A stretch of 20,788 nucleotides of DNA from a virus, in the IMG/VR virus record IMGVR_UViG_3300009105_000036, positions 1-20,788 of that record. The stretch is one strand, 5' to 3'. Below the pieces are notes generated by a model that saw nothing but the letters and a program-made list of their open reading frames with translations, did no database searches and was not told the DNA's origin. This document shows positions 3,458 through 12,761 of this stretch, piece by piece. Made by a program: the position numbers and the translations under genes. The first letter of the stretch is position 1. Each line of letters begins with the position of its first letter.

Positions 3458-3694
3458 ATGGAAGCCACACTTAAAAAACAGTACAAGAATCATCCTGCGG
3501 GTACGGTGCTTATGTCCGTGAGCATTGACGTTTTCAAGGAGTTGAGAAAGGGCGGATACATCGAAAGTTACGAGTCCACGCCGGCGGAAAAAAGGGCTCT
3601 TGCTCCGAGCAGAACCCGCAAAGCGCAAAAGCCGGCCAAAGACAAGATGGTGAAAGAGGCTTCCGAGGAGAAAAAAAAGGAAGGGGGCGAATAG
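3458..3694 (+). CDS. Small basic protein, copy 1 of a tandem pair
   Basis: This 78-residue protein starts after GAGGTG with 5-base spacing. Residues 1-40 form a compact unit (MEATLKKQYKNHPAGTV, then a helix and GGYIE), a pattern seen in short phage proteins encoded between capsid and neck genes, where a small beta-barrel-like strand-turn-strand precedes a helix ending in a Gly. Residues 45-78 are a Lys/Ala/Glu-rich disordered tail. The next gene has the same build and similar residues. The function is unknown. The basic tail could touch DNA or the acidic capsid interior, but that is a guess. Confidence 0.7.
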   Translation: MEATLKKQYKNHPAGTVLMSVSIDVFKELRKGGYIESYESTPAEKRALAPSRTRKAQKPAKDKMVKEASEEKKKEGGE

Positions 3695-3718: not shown

Positions 3719-3949
3719 ATGGAAGTAACGCTCACTAAAAAATTTAAGGAGTACAACATCGGCGACGTAATACCCGCCGCTGAAATGACTCCAAAACTCT
3801 ATCGGCAACTCTACATGAACGATGTTATCAACAAGGTCAGGGCGGACGGAACCCGTTTGCCCGCGACCATAGAGAAGCCGAAGCCAAAGCCAACCGGCAA
3901 GGCTCCCGCTAAAACGGCCGCGCCGGCTGCTACTAAACCAAAAAAATAG
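3719..3949 (+). CDS. Small basic protein, copy 2 of a tandem pair
   Basis: A 76-residue protein starts after GAGGA with 4-base spacing. Its N-terminus (MEVTLTKKFKEYNIGDVIPAAEM) lines up with copy 1 (MEATLKKQYKNHPAGTVLMSV): charged strand, aromatic, Gly, short turn, then a helix of about 12 residues. The C-terminal 25 residues are a Lys/Pro/Ala tail (KPKPKPTGKAPAKTAAP), like a disordered nucleic-acid-binding or capsid-lining tail. Same position, size and layout point to local duplication followed by divergence. No enzymatic motif is visible and no function is assigned. Confidence 0.7.
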   Translation: MEVTLTKKFKEYNIGDVIPAAEMTPKLYRQLYMNDVINKVRADGTRLPATIEKPKPKPTGKAPAKTAAPAATKPKK

Positions 3950-3993: not shown

Positions 3994-4806
3994 ATGGCTA
4001 ACGATTTACTAACAAGGGGCAGCTTGTGGTATAACAATTTTTCCTTTTGGGATGCCGACATTTGCCCTCAAAAACACACGTCGTTGATGGAGCTTGTGCC
4101 GCTGCCGATGCTTTTGTATCCGGCCATAGGCTACAACTTCATGGACGATTTTCACGTCATGGAGTCAACCAAGGCGGCGCAGGCCGACCATTGGACCGTG
4201 ACCGAGGACGATGGCGCCGGTGGAACCAACGCCGTGCAAGAGGCGGTCAATGGAGTTTACCGCCATTATTGTGACGGTGACGACAACGACGAAGCCTACG
4301 TCCACAGCACAAACGAAACGTTTGCCCTGAGAAACGGCAAGCACCTCTTTTGGGAGGCGCGAGTCAAGTTGACCGAAAGCGCAACCAACAAAGCCAACTT
4401 CATCGTTGGACTGAGTGAGAATGTTGGCGCCGACCACTTACAGGACAACGGCGCAGGCCCTCCGGCCTCGTATGACGGTATGTGTTGGTACAAACTGGAC
4501 TCAAATATGTTTATCGAGTTCGAGACGTCCCTTGCAGCCGCTCAAGTCGAATCATCTGACGTTGCGGCTCACGTATCCGGCACATGGTACCGCCTGGGTG
4601 CCTGGTGCAAACCGAACACCGCGACCACGTACACCGTGTACCCGTTCTATCAGGTTGGAACCAACAATGGCGTACTGCAGACAACGTCTCACGCCCTGAC
4701 CCTAACCGGCCATGGCGAAATGGAAGCCTTTTTCGGCGTAAAAGCCGGAAGCGGCGCAGAAGAGTATATCGAGATTGACTACTTTTGGGTATGTCAACAG
4801 CGATAG
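3994..4806 (+). CDS. Lectin-like jelly-roll structural protein, probable head decoration or fibre
   Basis: This 270-residue protein has a 45-residue N-terminal segment (MANDLLTRGSLWYNNF...), possibly an attachment region, followed by a beta-rich domain. The domain starts MDDFHVMES and runs through YRHYCDGDDNDEAYVHST, HLFWEARVKL and ANFIVGLSENVGADHLQDNG to a closing EYIEIDYFWV strand. That strand order, with FWEARVKL and FIVGLSE, is the pattern of concanavalin-A-like jelly rolls found in phage structural proteins and in secreted glycan-binding modules. I see no obvious catalytic Glu pair, so binding rather than hydrolysis is likely. It is the last gene of the head block before an intercistronic region with two hairpins. 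Capsid-surface display binding host glycan or mucin is plausible but inferred. Confidence 0.6.
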   Translation: MANDLLTRGSLWYNNFSFWDADICPQKHTSLMELVPLPMLLYPAIGYNFMDDFHVMESTKAAQADHWTVTEDDGAGGTNAVQEAVNGVYRHYCDGDDNDEAYVHSTNETFALRNGKHLFWEARVKLTESATNKANFIVGLSENVGADHLQDNGAGPPASYDGMCWYKLDSNMFIEFETSLAAAQVESSDVAAHVSGTWYRLGAWCKPNTATTYTVYPFYQVGTNNGVLQTTSHALTLTGHGEMEAFFGVKAGSGAEEYIEIDYFWVCQQR

Positions 4807-4809
4807 GGA

Positions 4810-4826
4810 GTGTCACCTTTTGACAC
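4810..4826 (+). other. Short hairpin after the jelly-roll gene
   Basis: GTGTCA (4810-4815) pairs with TGACAC (4821-4826) around CCTTT, three bases after the stop codon. It is the first of two consecutive hairpins in the 84-base gap. It has no T-run and a moderate stem, so it could be a weak 3' barrier. Part of it reads TTGACA but no -10 box follows. Confidence 0.4.
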
Positions 4827-4844
4827 ATTGAAACGGACAGCGAC

Positions 4845-4868
4845 GGGCGGCCCTTTTTCGGGCTGCCC
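4845..4868 (+). terminator. GC-rich hairpin, possible weak terminator or mRNA processing structure
   Basis: GGGCGGCCC (4845-4853) and GGGCTGCCC (4860-4868) form a 9-bp stem with one G-U pair and a TTTTTC loop. The stem is strong but no T-tract follows on either strand, so intrinsic termination is doubtful. Its position between the head block and the AT-richer accessory genes suggests attenuation or a boundary of an inserted segment. Confidence 0.35.
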
Positions 4869-4890
4869 TCCTGCCCACAAAGGAGGACGA

Positions 4891-5169
4891 ATGGGGATTA
4901 TCAAAAACCTCGAGTTAAACTGGAGTGACAGGAAGCTGCGCTTAATATCATGGAGGAACAAGGCAAAGTCTATGCAAATAAGCAGCTTCAAATGGAGTGC
5001 GGCAACCGGCAAAAAATATATCGGCTTCAAATTTATTGTCGATTTGTTTTCCGATAGTGGCCATTGCCATTGGATAGAGCTAACGGTTTTGGATTGGATT
5101 GTCAGCCTAAGAATCGACACAAAATATGGCAGAGAAAGCATAGAGAGATTTAAAAGGCAATCGGCATGA
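4891..5169 (+). CDS. Hypothetical protein, AT-richer accessory gene
   Basis: I chose ATG 4891 because AAAGGAGG lies 4 bases upstream. A GTG start at 4810 would read through both hairpins. The 92-residue product is basic at its start (MGIIKNLELNWSDRKLRLISW) and has a hydrophobic/aromatic stretch, CHWIELTVLDWIVSL (about 58-72), too polar for a sure membrane helix. The gene looks clearly more AT-rich than the flanking structural genes and uses AGA, AGG and ATA freely, as expected of a recently acquired 'moron'. It ends in an ATGA overlap with the Cys-rich protein gene, so the two are probably made together. I recognise no family. Confidence 0.65.
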   Translation: MGIIKNLELNWSDRKLRLISWRNKAKSMQISSFKWSAATGKKYIGFKFIVDLFSDSGHCHWIELTVLDWIVSLRIDTKYGRESIERFKRQSA

Positions 5170-6038
5170 ACACAAGCAACGTGACTCCTAAACCCTACGA
5201 GCGAATTTGGGAGATAACCCCCGACCCGCTTGCCATCAAGCCGCGGGCGGAATTTCGCTGTTTGTTTTGCGGAGGGCCTACGCAGGTTTCGCATGGCGTT
5301 TACTTCGAGTTTGAACTGAAGCTACACGGTGACAGCACAAAAAAAAGTCACGCCATGGACACCTGGCTGCGGTGCCATTTCTGCGGATGGACGGACGTGC
5401 ATGGCGTTGCCATGCCGGACGAAAAGTACCAACTCATTGCCGACGCTGTACACACGGCACAAAGGGTTGACGAAAAGGGCGGGTACATCACACCCGACCC
5501 GAACGAAGAACGCCCTAGCAAGGGCATGATATTTCCAATGAATCAGGAGGCAATAATGGAAAAACCCACAAAGCCGCCTTGGCTTGCTTACGACACCGAA
5601 ATTGGCATACTGCCAGGATTCCCCATGACCTGCAAAAAATGCGGGCCATGGATACGCCAACAGCAAGAAGAAGGAAACCATACCGACGTAAAGCTCCATG
5701 AAAATGGGGAAGTTCCTATGATTTTGCGCCACAGTCGAATGCACCAGGCGCGGAGAAGTAGGATTGTAAAAAGATGGCGCTTTTTTAACTGGATGCAGAT
5801 TGAGTTCCACAAGCCTGTTTCGCCCACGTTTGCGGCGCCGGTCTTTAGGGTGAGCTACAAATGTCCTGTGTGCGATTGGCTTTCAACGTTTGTTGTGCCG
5901 GTGCCGCAGGAATATTTCGATATAACTTTAGAGCTACGGGGAGGCGAGGCGCTCTACTACCCGCCCCTTGACGACTGGGGCAAGGATGCCGACTACGACC
6001 TCGTAAAGGAAAAACTCGAATCCCTGGGCTACGTTTAG
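5166..6038 (+). CDS. Tandem zinc-ribbon-like protein, possible dual translation start
   Basis: This 290-residue protein has four CxxC knuckles: Cys 32/35 (RCLFCGG), 70/73 (RCHFCGW), 156/159 (TCKKCG) and 233/236 (KCPVCDW). They fall into two halves, each with CxxCG first and CxxCxW second, followed by Pro-x-(D/Q)-E-(K/Y) (MPDEKY at 83-88, VPQEY at 246-250). This looks like internal duplication of a two-knuckle zinc-binding module. The halves are joined by a linker (95-150) that holds a second good start (Met131). There is no nuclease or helicase motif. Zinc ribbons usually bind nucleic acid or stabilise protein contacts. A virion, DNA-binding or host-transcription role is open. It is coupled by ATGA to the small gene before it. 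Confidence 0.6.
   Translation: MNTSNVTPKPYERIWEITPDPLAIKPRAEFRCLFCGGPTQVSHGVYFEFELKLHGDSTKKSHAMDTWLRCHFCGWTDVHGVAMPDEKYQLIADAVHTAQRVDEKGGYITPDPNEERPSKGMIFPMNQEAIMEKPTKPPWLAYDTEIGILPGFPMTCKKCGPWIRQQQEEGNHTDVKLHENGEVPMILRHSRMHQARRSRIVKRWRFFNWMQIEFHKPVSPTFAAPVFRVSYKCPVCDWLSTFVVPVPQEYFDITLELRGGEALYYPPLDDWGKDADYDLVKEKLESLGYV
5545..5558 (+). promoter_or_regulatory. Strong internal ribosome binding site and in-frame ATG in the zinc-ribbon gene
   Basis: AGGAGG (5545-5550) stands 5 bases before an in-frame ATG (5556), the same geometry as true starts in this window. Initiation here gives a 160-residue product holding only the second pair of CxxC knuckles. It may mark the join between two ancestral genes or drive production of a shorter isoform. 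Confidence 0.55.
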
Positions 6039-9156: not shown

Positions 9157-9653
9157 TGAAACCGAAAATGGTAATAACCGGCAAAGAAATCGTGGTGAAA
9201 AACCTCAGTCTCTTACCGGCTAAAGCCATCAACGCCGTGGCAAAAGCCACGCTCACGGCGGCCATCTTGACAACCAACGACGCGAAAATTCTTAGCCCCG
9301 TAGACAGGGGCCGGCTAAGGGCGTCCTTGTCTTTCAATTGGACTGACAGCGGAATACAGCACGGCAAAATCAAAGGCAAGGTCAAACCCAAGGCCGGCAG
9401 CAAGGGCAGCACGCCGCAGGACGGCGTTGGCCCGCCGCCGAAGGAACTAAAGGGCTTTCACGCTTCCGTTGGCACCAACGTCGAGTACGCCGAGGACGTG
9501 GAGAATAATATTTCTCCATTCCTGTGGCCCGCTTTTGCCATGAATAAAGAAAAATACAGAACCATGCTATCGGCCGCGCTGCGAACGGAACTCTCGACCA
9601 CGCGACTGACCGGCGGCTCGTTCTTCGGGCGCCCGAATGTGAGGAAATTATGA
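9153..9653 (+). CDS. HK97 gp10-like tail completion (neck) protein
   Basis: This 166-residue protein has starts at 9153 and 9156, both overlapping the previous stop. Core family features are: a long first helix (VKNLSLLPAKAINAVAKATLTAAILTT), the NDAKILSPVDRGRLRASLSF motif (43-62) corresponding to the conserved 'aP..tG.LR.S' segment, SVGTNVEYAEDVE (105-117), and a terminal SPFLWPAF followed by a helix. A Lys/Gly-rich loop (about 70-98) separates the halves. The usual Gly-Thr after the YAxxVE motif is replaced by NN. Proteins of this family join tail and head and are normally encoded just before the tail terminator, as here. Confidence 0.8.
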   Translation: MMKPKMVITGKEIVVKNLSLLPAKAINAVAKATLTAAILTTNDAKILSPVDRGRLRASLSFNWTDSGIQHGKIKGKVKPKAGSKGSTPQDGVGPPPKELKGFHASVGTNVEYAEDVENNISPFLWPAFAMNKEKYRTMLSAALRTELSTTRLTGGSFFGRPNVRKL

Positions 9654-10066
9654 GCATAGCAACCGACGTCCCTTTCGATGCAATCCAGAACGCCATTTAC
9701 ACGGCGCTGCAAGGCACAATTACCGGCGAAGTGTACGACGAAGTGGCCGACGATGCCGAATTTCCTTACACGGTCATTGGTGAGCCGATGGACTTGCCGT
9801 TTGAGGCCCGCGGGGTCAAAGGCCGTTCTGTGATATGGCCAATTATTGTACATAGCCGGCCTGGCGACACCGGCGGCAAGTGGCAGTTGTACGACATAAT
9901 GGAGGAAATCGTCACAACGCTGACGGCCTCCCAACTGAGCCTGACCGGATGGCGGGAAATATGGAAAACCTTTAACCAGGCCCGCGTAGAACGGCAGAAA
10001 AAAGAGACCGGCAACGTTGCCTACAAAGGAACGGTGACGATGCTCATTACGGTGGCAAAACTATGA
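9650..10066 (+). CDS. Tail terminator protein (DUF3168-like)
   Basis: This 138-residue protein overlaps its neighbour by ATGA on both sides. It matches the tail-terminator pattern: helix DAIQNAIYTALQG, the strand TGEVYDEVADDAEFPYTVIGEP (25-46), in which Y-D-x-x-x-x-x-x-x-FPY is the family hallmark, and WPIIVHSRPGDTGGKWQLYDIMEEIV. The end carries SLTGWREIWKTF and RQKKETGNVAYKGTVTMLITV. The hexameric terminator stops tube growth and presents the tail to the head. In most phages of this type the tube gene follows directly; here three enzyme genes intervene. Confidence 0.82.
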   Translation: MSIATDVPFDAIQNAIYTALQGTITGEVYDEVADDAEFPYTVIGEPMDLPFEARGVKGRSVIWPIIVHSRPGDTGGKWQLYDIMEEIVTTLTASQLSLTGWREIWKTFNQARVERQKKETGNVAYKGTVTMLITVAKL

Positions 10067-10626
10067 ACCAAAAAGAACGGCGGGAAGCCCACATGAAGGC
10101 GCACATCTCTGACGTGCATGATTATGGCACTTTGTTGTATATCGGCGCATCACCTGGCAAGCAGCAAATGGTCAAAGGATTCAACGACGCCGGCTATAAG
10201 ATTGACGTCCTTGAGGCCTGGAAAGAAAATGTCGACGGCCTGAGGTTTATCAACAACGGAACGGGTGTTTTTCGTAAAATCATACACGGCACGGCCGAGA
10301 AGTTTGTTGCCGGCCCTCCGTTTTGGTACGTTGACCCTGACCACCGGCCGTATGATGTGATAATGTGGTGGCATGGCCCGGAACACGTCGGCCGAACGGA
10401 TGCAGAAACAACCTTAATAGGCCTGGAACAGCAAGCTAAACACCTGCTTATCGCTGCCACGCCAAACGGTGTCTTTGAACAAGGGCCGGATTTAGGCAAC
10501 CCGTACAATCCGCACGTTTCGACATGGTATGCACAGGATTTTCACCGGCTAGGGTTTTTGTCGGCCGCAATCGACGGTATCGACAAAAAAGGCAGCCATC
10601 TTTTGGCCTGGCGGAGGGTGGCATGA
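10063..10626 (+). CDS. Class I SAM-dependent methyltransferase-like protein
   Basis: This 187-residue protein starts in the terminator stop (ATGA). It has a Rossmann-type layout: LLYIGASPGK (24-33) as motif I, YKIDVLEAW (45-53) as strand 2 with its acidic end, YDVIMWWHGPEHVGR (97-111) as motif IV region with the usual 'leH', and LLIAATPNGVFEQG...NPHVSTW (128-155), a form common in type-11 methyltransferases ('tPnG...N..H'). Motif I is degenerate compared with DxGxGxG, and there is no DPPY/NPPY, so a DNA base methyltransferase is unlikely. Likely targets are sugar, protein or small molecule. Tight coupling to the sulfotransferase and glycosyltransferase genes suggests a shared substrate. Confidence 0.62.
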   Translation: MNQKERREAHMKAHISDVHDYGTLLYIGASPGKQQMVKGFNDAGYKIDVLEAWKENVDGLRFINNGTGVFRKIIHGTAEKFVAGPPFWYVDPDHRPYDVIMWWHGPEHVGRTDAETTLIGLEQQAKHLLIAATPNGVFEQGPDLGNPYNPHVSTWYAQDFHRLGFLSAAIDGIDKKGSHLLAWRRVA

Positions 10627-11426
10627 AAATCTTTGTGGTTTCCACAGGAAGGTGCGGCACGGTGTTTATGTCGGAGGTGTTCAGCAAGCTCACGACCGTT
10701 CCGAGTTTTCACGAGCCGCGGCCGCATTGCGCGGGCGAAACCATGCGTTTTGTCAACGACACTGAAGGCAAACAATATCCCGTGGCCGTGCGACGTGAAC
10801 TTGCGGATAAAATAAAACAGGTCAAGGCCGATTCCGTTGACGGCCACTATTTCGAGAGCAGCCAAATGTTCGTCAAAGCGTATGCGCGGTTTGTATTCAA
10901 GGCGTTTGAGAATGTGGCCTTGATTTACCTCCACCGCAATCCGATTGAAGTTACCATGAGTTACTACAAAAAGAAGCTCGGTCAACCGAAGCAATACAAT
11001 TATTGGCACCTGCAAAGCCATTGGAGCCAAAACATTTTACGCATGGCAGAGCCGCAGGGCCTTTATGCCGACATATTTTGGGAATGCCTGGAAATAAAAG
11101 AGCGCTTTCTGGCGCTCAAGGCCATGGCCGCAAAAACGTTTGTAATGGATTTTAAGCGACTCAACGACGTCGGCGCTTGGAAGGCTCTGTTTAAGCACCT
11201 AAACGTCCCGCACAGGCCATTTAAGGCCCTGCCTGATGTAAACAAAAACGCCGTCGAGGGCGATACGCTCAAAACGCTGAACGGGCTGCTCTCAATTTGG
11301 GATGAACCTGGCGCCGATGCGCCGCCGGCCACGGCTCACTACGACCGATTGGCCACGTTCATAGACTTCGGCCAAAAGACAATAGCAAAAACACAGAGAG
11401 GGAACAATGCGCAAATACTTGGATGA
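10623..11426 (+). CDS. Sulfotransferase-like protein (PAPS-dependent fold)
   Basis: I chose ATG 10623 (GGAGG 5 bases upstream, ATGA overlap). An upstream start at 10524 would bury the first 33 residues in the methyltransferase gene. The 267-residue product begins MKIFVVSTGRCGTVFMSEVF, the 5'-phosphosulfate-binding loop of sulfotransferases (GRCGT/GRSGT). ALIYLHRNPIEVTMSYYKK (99-117) is the 3'-phosphate site with Arg105 and Ser113 in the expected spacing. SFHEP (28-32) resembles an HEP element seen in some sulfotransferase-like proteins. These enzymes move sulfate from PAPS to hydroxyls or amines of glycans, lipids or Tyr. The fold can also be used by non-sulfating P-loop enzymes. It overlaps the glycosyltransferase by 20 bases. 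Confidence 0.72.
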   Translation: MKIFVVSTGRCGTVFMSEVFSKLTTVPSFHEPRPHCAGETMRFVNDTEGKQYPVAVRRELADKIKQVKADSVDGHYFESSQMFVKAYARFVFKAFENVALIYLHRNPIEVTMSYYKKKLGQPKQYNYWHLQSHWSQNILRMAEPQGLYADIFWECLEIKERFLALKAMAAKTFVMDFKRLNDVGAWKALFKHLNVPHRPFKALPDVNKNAVEGDTLKTLNGLLSIWDEPGADAPPATAHYDRLATFIDFGQKTIAKTQRGNNAQILG

Positions 11427-12297
11427 TGTTGCCGTGGTGGTGACGACGTTTATTCGCCCGAAACAGTTGACGAAGTGCATTGTCAGTATTCGGAAGTTTT
11501 ACCCGTCAATAAAAATCCTTGTGGCCGACAACGGCCGGCCCGATGCGGCAATATCCGCTTTTCTGCGCTCTGAGAATTGCGAACACCTCTTGCTGCCGTT
11601 TGACAGCGGCCTGGCCATGACGCGCAACAGAGGTCTGGATAAACTGGCGACCTATCCCTACGTTGTTATGCTTGAGGACGACATGGAATTTACAGCCGAG
11701 TCGAAGCTAGAGAAATTCAAGGCTGCCATCGAACCGAACCCCCAAATCGGAGTCGTAGCCGGCGGGCTTGAAGTTGAGCCAGGCGTAAAAAACCTCTTTG
11801 CCAACAATATCGTAGTGGACAAGGAAAACAACCGTTATCTTGTGCGGGCCATCGACAAGCCCGAATGGCACACGTCCGGCGGGGTACGGTGGTTTTATGC
11901 CGAGTACGTTTACAACTGGCATATTATGCGCAACGCGCCCGATATACGTTGGGACGACGACCTCAAGCAATGTATCGAACATTTTGATTTTGCCGTCCAC
12001 ATGAAAACGGAAACGAAATGGAAAATCGCTGCCACGCCGGAAGTTGTCTGCCGGCATTTTGCCGTGACGGAAACCAAAGAGTACGTCACCCACCGGCGCA
12101 ATTACGCAACGTGGAAAAAGTTTTTCGCGAAACGGGGCATCCGGTTCATGCACGACTCGACAGAAAAAAGGATGCGTGATTTTAAGACGATTGAATGCTT
12201 GTCGGCGCCGGAATACCACTACCGAATGCTCATGGCAATGAAAGAAGCCCAAAGCGGGGTCGACATGAAAGACCAATCGCTTTATAGGGATATATAA
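11407..12297 (+). CDS. Family-2-type (GT-A) glycosyltransferase
   Basis: This 296-residue protein has a clear GT-A N-terminus: VAVVVTTFIRPKQLTKCIVSIRKFYP (8-33), ILVADNG (37-43), DSGLAMTRNRGLD (66-78), and VMLEDDMEF (87-95), in which EDDM holds the metal-binding Asp. Further on EHFDFAVHM (191-199) fits the base-bearing E-H-x-D-F element, and CRHFAV (215-220) may be metal-coordinating. The N-terminal pattern is reminiscent of beta-1,4 N-acetylgalactosaminyltransferases (GT12-like) as well as GT2. The donor sugar cannot be read from the sequence. No membrane helix or signal peptide is visible, so it works in the cytoplasm. It is the last of the three modification genes, ends 20 bases before the tube gene, and probably glycosylates a virion protein or a host glycan precursor. 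Confidence 0.8.
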   Translation: MRKYLDDVAVVVTTFIRPKQLTKCIVSIRKFYPSIKILVADNGRPDAAISAFLRSENCEHLLLPFDSGLAMTRNRGLDKLATYPYVVMLEDDMEFTAESKLEKFKAAIEPNPQIGVVAGGLEVEPGVKNLFANNIVVDKENNRYLVRAIDKPEWHTSGGVRWFYAEYVYNWHIMRNAPDIRWDDDLKQCIEHFDFAVHMKTETKWKIAATPEVVCRHFAVTETKEYVTHRRNYATWKKFFAKRGIRFMHDSTEKRMRDFKTIECLSAPEYHYRMLMAMKEAQSGVDMKDQSLYRDI

Positions 12298-12317: not shown

Positions 12318-12761
12318 ATGGCTGACCAAATACCAATTCCTGGGGAGTTTTGTACGCTCCTGGTGGAAACCGTTGCCGTGGCGGCAACAAGAACGTTCAC
12401 CATGAACGTTGACCGTGCGCATTATGGCACTTTTGTGGCACGGGACACGTCGAAATGGCGGACAAATTATGTGGCTGATATAGGCGCTACCTTTGATATT
12501 GACGGCCTGGTTGTTTGCGCCGACACATCACCCGCAGCCAAACAGTTTGACGACCTTTTCACCTACATGGGTGCCGGTACAATTCTAACAATCGTGTTCA
12601 CGCTCAGGTCAAACACTTCGGCAGAACAGACGTTTATTTACACGGCCGAGGCGTACTTGAATACGCTCAATGTGGTGGCACCGCAGTTCGGTGAGTCAAC
12701 CTACACGGCGAACCTTATCGTTTCCGGTGCGGTCACGCAAACCACAGGTACGGTAAGCTAA
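12318..12761 (+). CDS. Major tail tube protein
   Basis: This 147-residue beta-rich protein follows a strong AGGAGG site 5 bases upstream. It has the two-sheet layout of tube proteins: TRTFTMNVDRAHYGTF, DISKWRTNYVADIGATFDI-like strands with the Asp/Trp-rich loop, a central helix at PAAKQFDDLFTYMG (73-86), LTIVFTLRS, and AEAYLNTLNVVAPQFGESTYTANLIVSG (120-147 region), the final strand pair plus '-SGAVTQTT' tail. Size, and position directly before the G/G-T chaperones and tape measure, fit the tube role. Family assignment is by pattern and context. An AT-rich stretch with a T-run lies before the gene but no convincing promoter. Confidence 0.82.
   Translation: MADQIPIPGEFCTLLVETVAVAATRTFTMNVDRAHYGTFVARDTSKWRTNYVADIGATFDIDGLVVCADTSPAAKQFDDLFTYMGAGTILTIVFTLRSNTSAEQTFIYTAEAYLNTLNVVAPQFGESTYTANLIVSGAVTQTTGTVS

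Follow-up and report, generated by a model that had tools for sequence, protein, structure and literature searches.

Described systems of virion glycosylation and phage sulfotransferases

Glycosylation of the virion by phage-encoded glycosyltransferases has been described in mycobacteriophages, where the passages of PMC12619734 and PMC11256854 that cite Freeman 2023 place the glycans on capsid and tail tube subunits, at the C-termini of these subunits according to the passage in PMC12619734. The locus described here lies in an IMG/VR virus record of 20,788 nt (the window, meaning the whole stretch of DNA that was analysed) and resembles that system in encoding its own glycosyltransferase (GT). 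The mycobacteriophage system as cited in those passages includes no sulfotransferase (ST), whereas the window cassette has one, and the Maravista GTs are located near the 3′ end of the genome, whereas in the window the genes occupy the tail operon, adjacent to the tail tube gene. A search of cultured phages with the window GT gave no mycobacteriophage match, and the GT of a relative matched mycobacterial phages only at E ≥ 3e-3, in four records. GT and methyltransferase (MT) genes are likewise found together in GX15bay (MK557849) and in the Mycobacteroides abscessus prophages BK061311 and BK061312, but there the clusters are next to packaging genes, before the terminase, and no sulfotransferase was seen in them. 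In the two prophages (BK061312, L056:5947-8749; BK061311, L057), a GT-MT-GT25-like set sits just before the terminase genes, and its third gene, annotated as hypothetical, scores to Glyco_transf_25.

Auxiliary sulfotransferase genes have been reported from cyanophages, OM43 phages, and a glacier-ice virus (PMC10580990, PMC8290583); viromes list them as auxiliary metabolic genes, and their function in phages has been called unclear (PMC10580990). These enzymes are of the PF13469 type, like the window ST, but were reported as isolated genes, whereas the window carries an ST-GT pair within a structural module. An overlapping pair of an ST-like and a GT gene similar to that of the window is present in Salinibacter ruber phages (OR896166, about 180 near-identical isolates), where it follows the major capsid gene in the head module and its GT has an extra head-cluster domain, while the window pair lies 5′ of the tail tube gene. 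Phage GTs are known to glycosylate virions; in a literature search that covered few subscription journals, no paper was found that gives a phage sulfotransferase a virion or tail role, and none that connects phage sulfotransferases with virion glycosylation.

A three-gene cassette between the tail terminator and tail tube genes

Three co-directional genes on the plus strand, encoding an MT-like protein, an ST, and a GT2-family protein, separate the tail terminator gene from the tail tube gene. Both borders were identified by profile: the tail terminator at 9650..10066 (Pfam Tail_completion_gp17, E 1.6e-9; phrog_176, E 1.5e-13) and the major tail tube protein at 12318..12761 (phrog_1407, E 3.6e-8). 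The three open-reading frames noticed in the sequence-only reading are thus present at the place and on the strand given there, and its view that the insertion between these two genes is unusual was borne out; in an outgroup Bradyrhizobium phage, nothing separates the tail terminator from a neighbouring tail gene. The same region is found at 99.97% identity over 11.6 kb on another contig, which comes from metagenome 3300013120.

The putative MT (10063..10626, 187 aa) overlaps the tail terminator by 4 nt in an ATGA, the ST (10623..11426, 267 aa) overlaps the MT in the same way, and the GT (11407..12297, 296 aa) overlaps the ST by 20 nt. The start of the ST had been open to two readings. A start at 10524, giving 300 aa and a 102-nt overlap with the MT, was rejected, as no Shine-Dalgarno sequence precedes that ATG, while a near-perfect one (GGAGG) is found at the 10623 ATG and the ST homologue in L007, a related contig, begins at the residue matching 10623. 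With ST starting at 10623 in an ATGA coupling, the long MT/ST overlap is an artefact; the earlier description of the genes as coupled by overlaps holds for the two 4-nt overlaps and the 20-nt overlap, and fails for the long one.

Assignment of the cassette enzymes

The window GT matched PF00535 (Glycos_transf_2) at E 2.6e-11, with 44.2 bits against a cut-off of 23.3, and its best PDB match by sequence was the beta-1,4-GalNAc transferase B4GALNT1 (E 1.1e-12). The D-x-G motif, the acidic (E/D)-(D/E)-D motif, and the EHx(D/E)F region are conserved in eight divergent phage GTs, in agreement with the fold first proposed from the motifs, and on this profile and motif evidence we firmly assign the protein to the GT2 (GT-A) glycosyltransferases.

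For the ST, the Pfam models PF13469 and PF00685 were used with their curated cut-offs, and both were exceeded by the window protein (Sulfotransfer_3, E 4.3e-7, 30.9 versus 27 bits; Sulfotransfer_1, E 1.6e-5, 24.9 versus 22 bits), as was the 22-bit cut-off by the L007 homologue (30.6 bits). Residues R10, G12, and T13 of the 5′ phosphosulfate loop and R105 and S113 of the 3′-phosphate site are invariant in six divergent phage STs, which supports the sulfotransferase assignment suggested at the outset; membership in the PAPS-dependent sulfotransferase family, as judged from profiles and site residues, is firm. An AF2 model of the ST (pLDDT 65.5) was compared with the PDB, and five of the six matches at E ≤ 0.001 were sulfotransferases, but the top rank went to a P-loop kinase, a shikimate kinase, and TM scores were about 0.5 or less. 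Among the closest PDB folds were tyrosylprotein sulfotransferases (8w5z, 3ap2, 3ap3) together with heparan 3-O-sulfotransferases. A PDB sequence search with the ST gave no relevant match, and tblastn of the cultured phage collection with the window, L016, and L025 STs gave no ST relatives.

Comparison with L007 showed 70% amino acid identity for the GT (pS 0.84, pN 0.20) and 55% for the ST (pS 0.88, pN 0.31). Both genes are saturated at synonymous sites and unsaturated at replacement sites, as are the neighbouring structural genes, which argues that the two open-reading frames did not arise by chance; by this substitution pattern, both are under strong purifying constraint.

The first gene of the cassette is a weak candidate for a class I SAM methyltransferase. 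No Pfam, PHROG, or NCBIfam model matched it above cut-off, a PDB sequence search gave no relevant match, the AF2 prediction (pLDDT 31) provided no usable fold, and neither protein nor two-sequence alignment against viral contigs revealed any relatives. Its sole homologue found is the annotated methyltransferase of GX15bay, to which it has local similarity (37% over 54 aa, shuffle z 11.5) and which itself falls below the Pfam cut-offs. Motif-like stretches read by eye include IGASPG, an E after beta-2, and YDVIMWWHGPEHV. For the SAM-binding fold originally proposed for this protein, the local similarity to the distant GX15bay homologue speaks weakly in favor, while the family models and the structure prediction do not.

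The same locus in related phages

Relatives were found by scans with the tail tube protein, GT, and ST, and near-identical contigs were counted once, resulting in six lineages of one phage family: the window, L007, L027 (=L015), L010, L033, and L009. In all six, the gene immediately before the tail tube gene is a GT. Between the tail terminator and tail tube genes, the window has MT-ST-GT, L007 and L027 have ST-GT, L010 has GT4-GT, and L033 has the GT alone; L009 has a GT before the tail tube gene on a contig that begins 171 nt upstream of the GT. An ST thus accompanies the GT in three of the five readable loci and an MT in one. This distribution does not support the trio as a conserved unit, the view that the cassette of the sequence-only reading would suggest, since relatives carry ST-GT, GT4-GT, or the GT alone, and indicates instead a cassette at one fixed position in which the GT is constant and its companions are swappable. 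L033 has a further insertion, of a GT, a second GT-like gene, and an FkbM methyltransferase, before the head-tail adaptor.

The GTs of these lineages are 29-70% identical (29-46% between most), compared to 57-79% for the tail tube proteins. In the GT tree, L010 is placed apart from L033 with a support of 100, while the adaptor tree joins L010 and L033 with a support of 97, and this partial disagreement indicates that GT and tail are not strictly co-evolving. The low identity of the GTs and the conflict between the trees fit a fixed site at which genes are exchanged or diverge fast. When the host was sought through relatives of the major capsid protein in genome contigs, only Bacteroidales and Planctomycetota MAG contigs were found, with no readable tail tube gene.

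Two other features of these relatives were observed. The neck/tail-completion protein of L033 (L033:3173-4660; IMGVR_UViG_3300031643_000028 and near-identical contigs) is encoded by a 495-aa ORF with an in-frame insertion that matches the HNH endonuclease phrog_559 (residues 152-337, E 6.5e-12) and is absent from the window phage, so that this tail completion gene may contain an intein or an in-frame homing element. The L007 phage has, early on its contig and far from the tail cassette, an ORF with a GT-like N-terminus (L041:4347-5114, by eye) that follows a ParB-like ORF.

ST-GT pairs and glycan clusters in unrelated phages

The search of cultured phages with the window GT identified 183 near-clonal Salinibacter ruber phages, which represent one lineage. 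In these phages, an ST-like gene and a GT gene, both annotated as hypothetical, directly follow the major capsid gene; the ST-like gene (213 aa) begins 5 nt past the stop codon of the major capsid gene and overlaps the GT by 7 nt. Its product carries GTGRCGT and GLRRSREATIASY, and we call it ST-like only, since Pfam misses it (E 0.47) and a phage-ST profile finds it (E 8e-4 among 1457 ORFs, with the first decoy at 0.39). The GT of Salinibacter phage 10_4 (L004:7367-8485) ends in a C-terminal domain that is a homologue of the small head-cluster protein encoded just downstream (L004:8506-8853, phrog_2616; 49% identity over 43 aa), and this domain possibly tethers the enzyme to the head.

A fused form of the pair was found in L016 (IMGVR_UViG_3300035698_007508), a 126-kb contig on which a single ORF at 4250-6004 encodes a 584-aa ST-GT2 fusion, with Sulfotransfer_3 at residues 22-213 and GT2 at 275-388. 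This ORF is preceded by a LicD-like ORF and overlaps the next GT by 4 nt. L018, L019, and L046 carry larger glycan clusters, placed amid genes for the capsid, adaptor, or tail. The recurrence of the ST-GT pair was thus observed both in related phages (three of five loci) and in unrelated ones (Salinibacter phages and L016).

Proposed role in virion decoration and alternatives

On balance, we favor the reading that this locus is a swappable virion-glycan cassette at a fixed tail-operon site in a family of uncultured siphovirus-like phages. The constant GT, cytosolic and made with the tail proteins, would place a sugar onto a structural protein. Hydropathy revealed no transmembrane segment in the MT, ST, or GT, and the genes, by their position, would be co-transcribed with the tail genes, so that a soluble structural protein would be the most natural acceptor. 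The most likely one would be the tail tube protein encoded directly 3′ of the GT, a candidate given its Thr/Ser-rich C-terminus (QTTGTVS or similar in five of the six lineages) and the C-terminal glycans mentioned for mycobacteriophages in the passages cited above. The variable upstream genes would elaborate the glycan: the ST would transfer sulfate onto it, as the ST-GT2 fusion in L016 argues, from PAPS assumed to be supplied by the host since a search of the contigs for a phage-encoded APS kinase gave none, and the putative MT may cap it. A charged, hydrophilic particle coat might alter stability, adsorption, or recognition; evasion of antibodies, which had been raised from the sequence, is not a role that one would first expect in a phage from the environment. 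We infer, then, a sulfated glycan on the virion, along with the donor sugar of the GT, the acceptor, the sulfation site, the methylation, and the benefit.

The pairing and fusion of ST and GT in structural modules give phage sulfotransferases a concrete proposed role, virion decoration, and suggest a coat of sulfated sugars on the particles of some phages. A broader proposal, which we hold tentatively and with somewhat less than even confidence, is that several unrelated tailed-phage lineages independently built virion sulfoglycosylation, with a GT and an ST beside a tail tube or capsid gene and, at one fixed tail locus, exchangeable chemistry (sulfate, methyl, or a second sugar). This role is testable in the cultured Salinibacter phages. 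If true, particle glycosylation would reach beyond mycobacteriophages to aquatic and hypersaline phages, in which the glycans would be sulfated, and the reading of phage sulfotransferases in sulfur-cycle surveys would change.

The leading alternative, itself unlikely, is that the enzymes act late in infection on host surface glycans or cytosolic precursors, for superinfection exclusion or to keep progeny from sticking to debris, and reside in the tail operon for late expression only. Serotype-converting phage glycosyltransferases are established, polysaccharides are common substrates of both the GT2 and the sulfotransferase families, and the clusters of L018, L025, and L024 (cytidylyltransferases, LicD, UDP-Galp mutase, and GDP-fucose synthetase, by eye) resemble surface-polysaccharide pathways. 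However, the cassette has no flippase, membrane GT, or transmembrane segment, the genes are constantly adjacent to tail tube or capsid genes, and the GT is fused to a head-cluster domain in the Salinibacter phages, all of which fit poorly with a target on the host surface.

The position beside the tail tube gene could also be a neutral insertion hot spot, which would weigh against a virion role. That these are transient cargo genes of no consistent function at a tolerant tail locus is improbable, in our estimate: although the upstream genes differ from lineage to lineage, most lineages share little GT identity, and the conflict of GT and structural trees suggests exchange, the GT was kept in all six lineages with its catalytic motifs intact and under constraint, and the arrangement recurs independently in other phages. 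Slightly more doubtful still is direct sulfation of a tail protein by the ST, as in tyrosine sulfation, with the GT acting independently on the same or another protein. The tyrosylprotein sulfotransferases, which are among the closest folds together with heparan 3-O-sulfotransferases, would favor it, yet the ST model is too poor to assign a substrate, and a glycan substrate common to both enzymes agrees better with the L016 fusion and the recurrent pairing of ST with GT.

Modification of phage DNA to give hypermodified bases is the least likely of these alternatives and very improbable: some phage GTs do modify DNA, and a mycobacterial prophage GT that was a weak match in the search with the L010 GT has a TAGT score of 2.4e-4, which is below cut-off, but the window GT scores to PF00535 and showed no match to the TAGT profile at E ≤ 1, no Tet_JBP dioxygenase was found in the window or the related contigs, which are fragments, and the cassette is located among the tail genes, not in the replication module.

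Elsewhere in the window, 3′ of the capsid gene, two adjoining small proteins (3458-3694 and 3719-3949) have similar N-termini (ATLKKQYKNHPAGTV and VTLTKKFKEYNIGDV) and may be tandemly duplicated copies of one head-associated protein.
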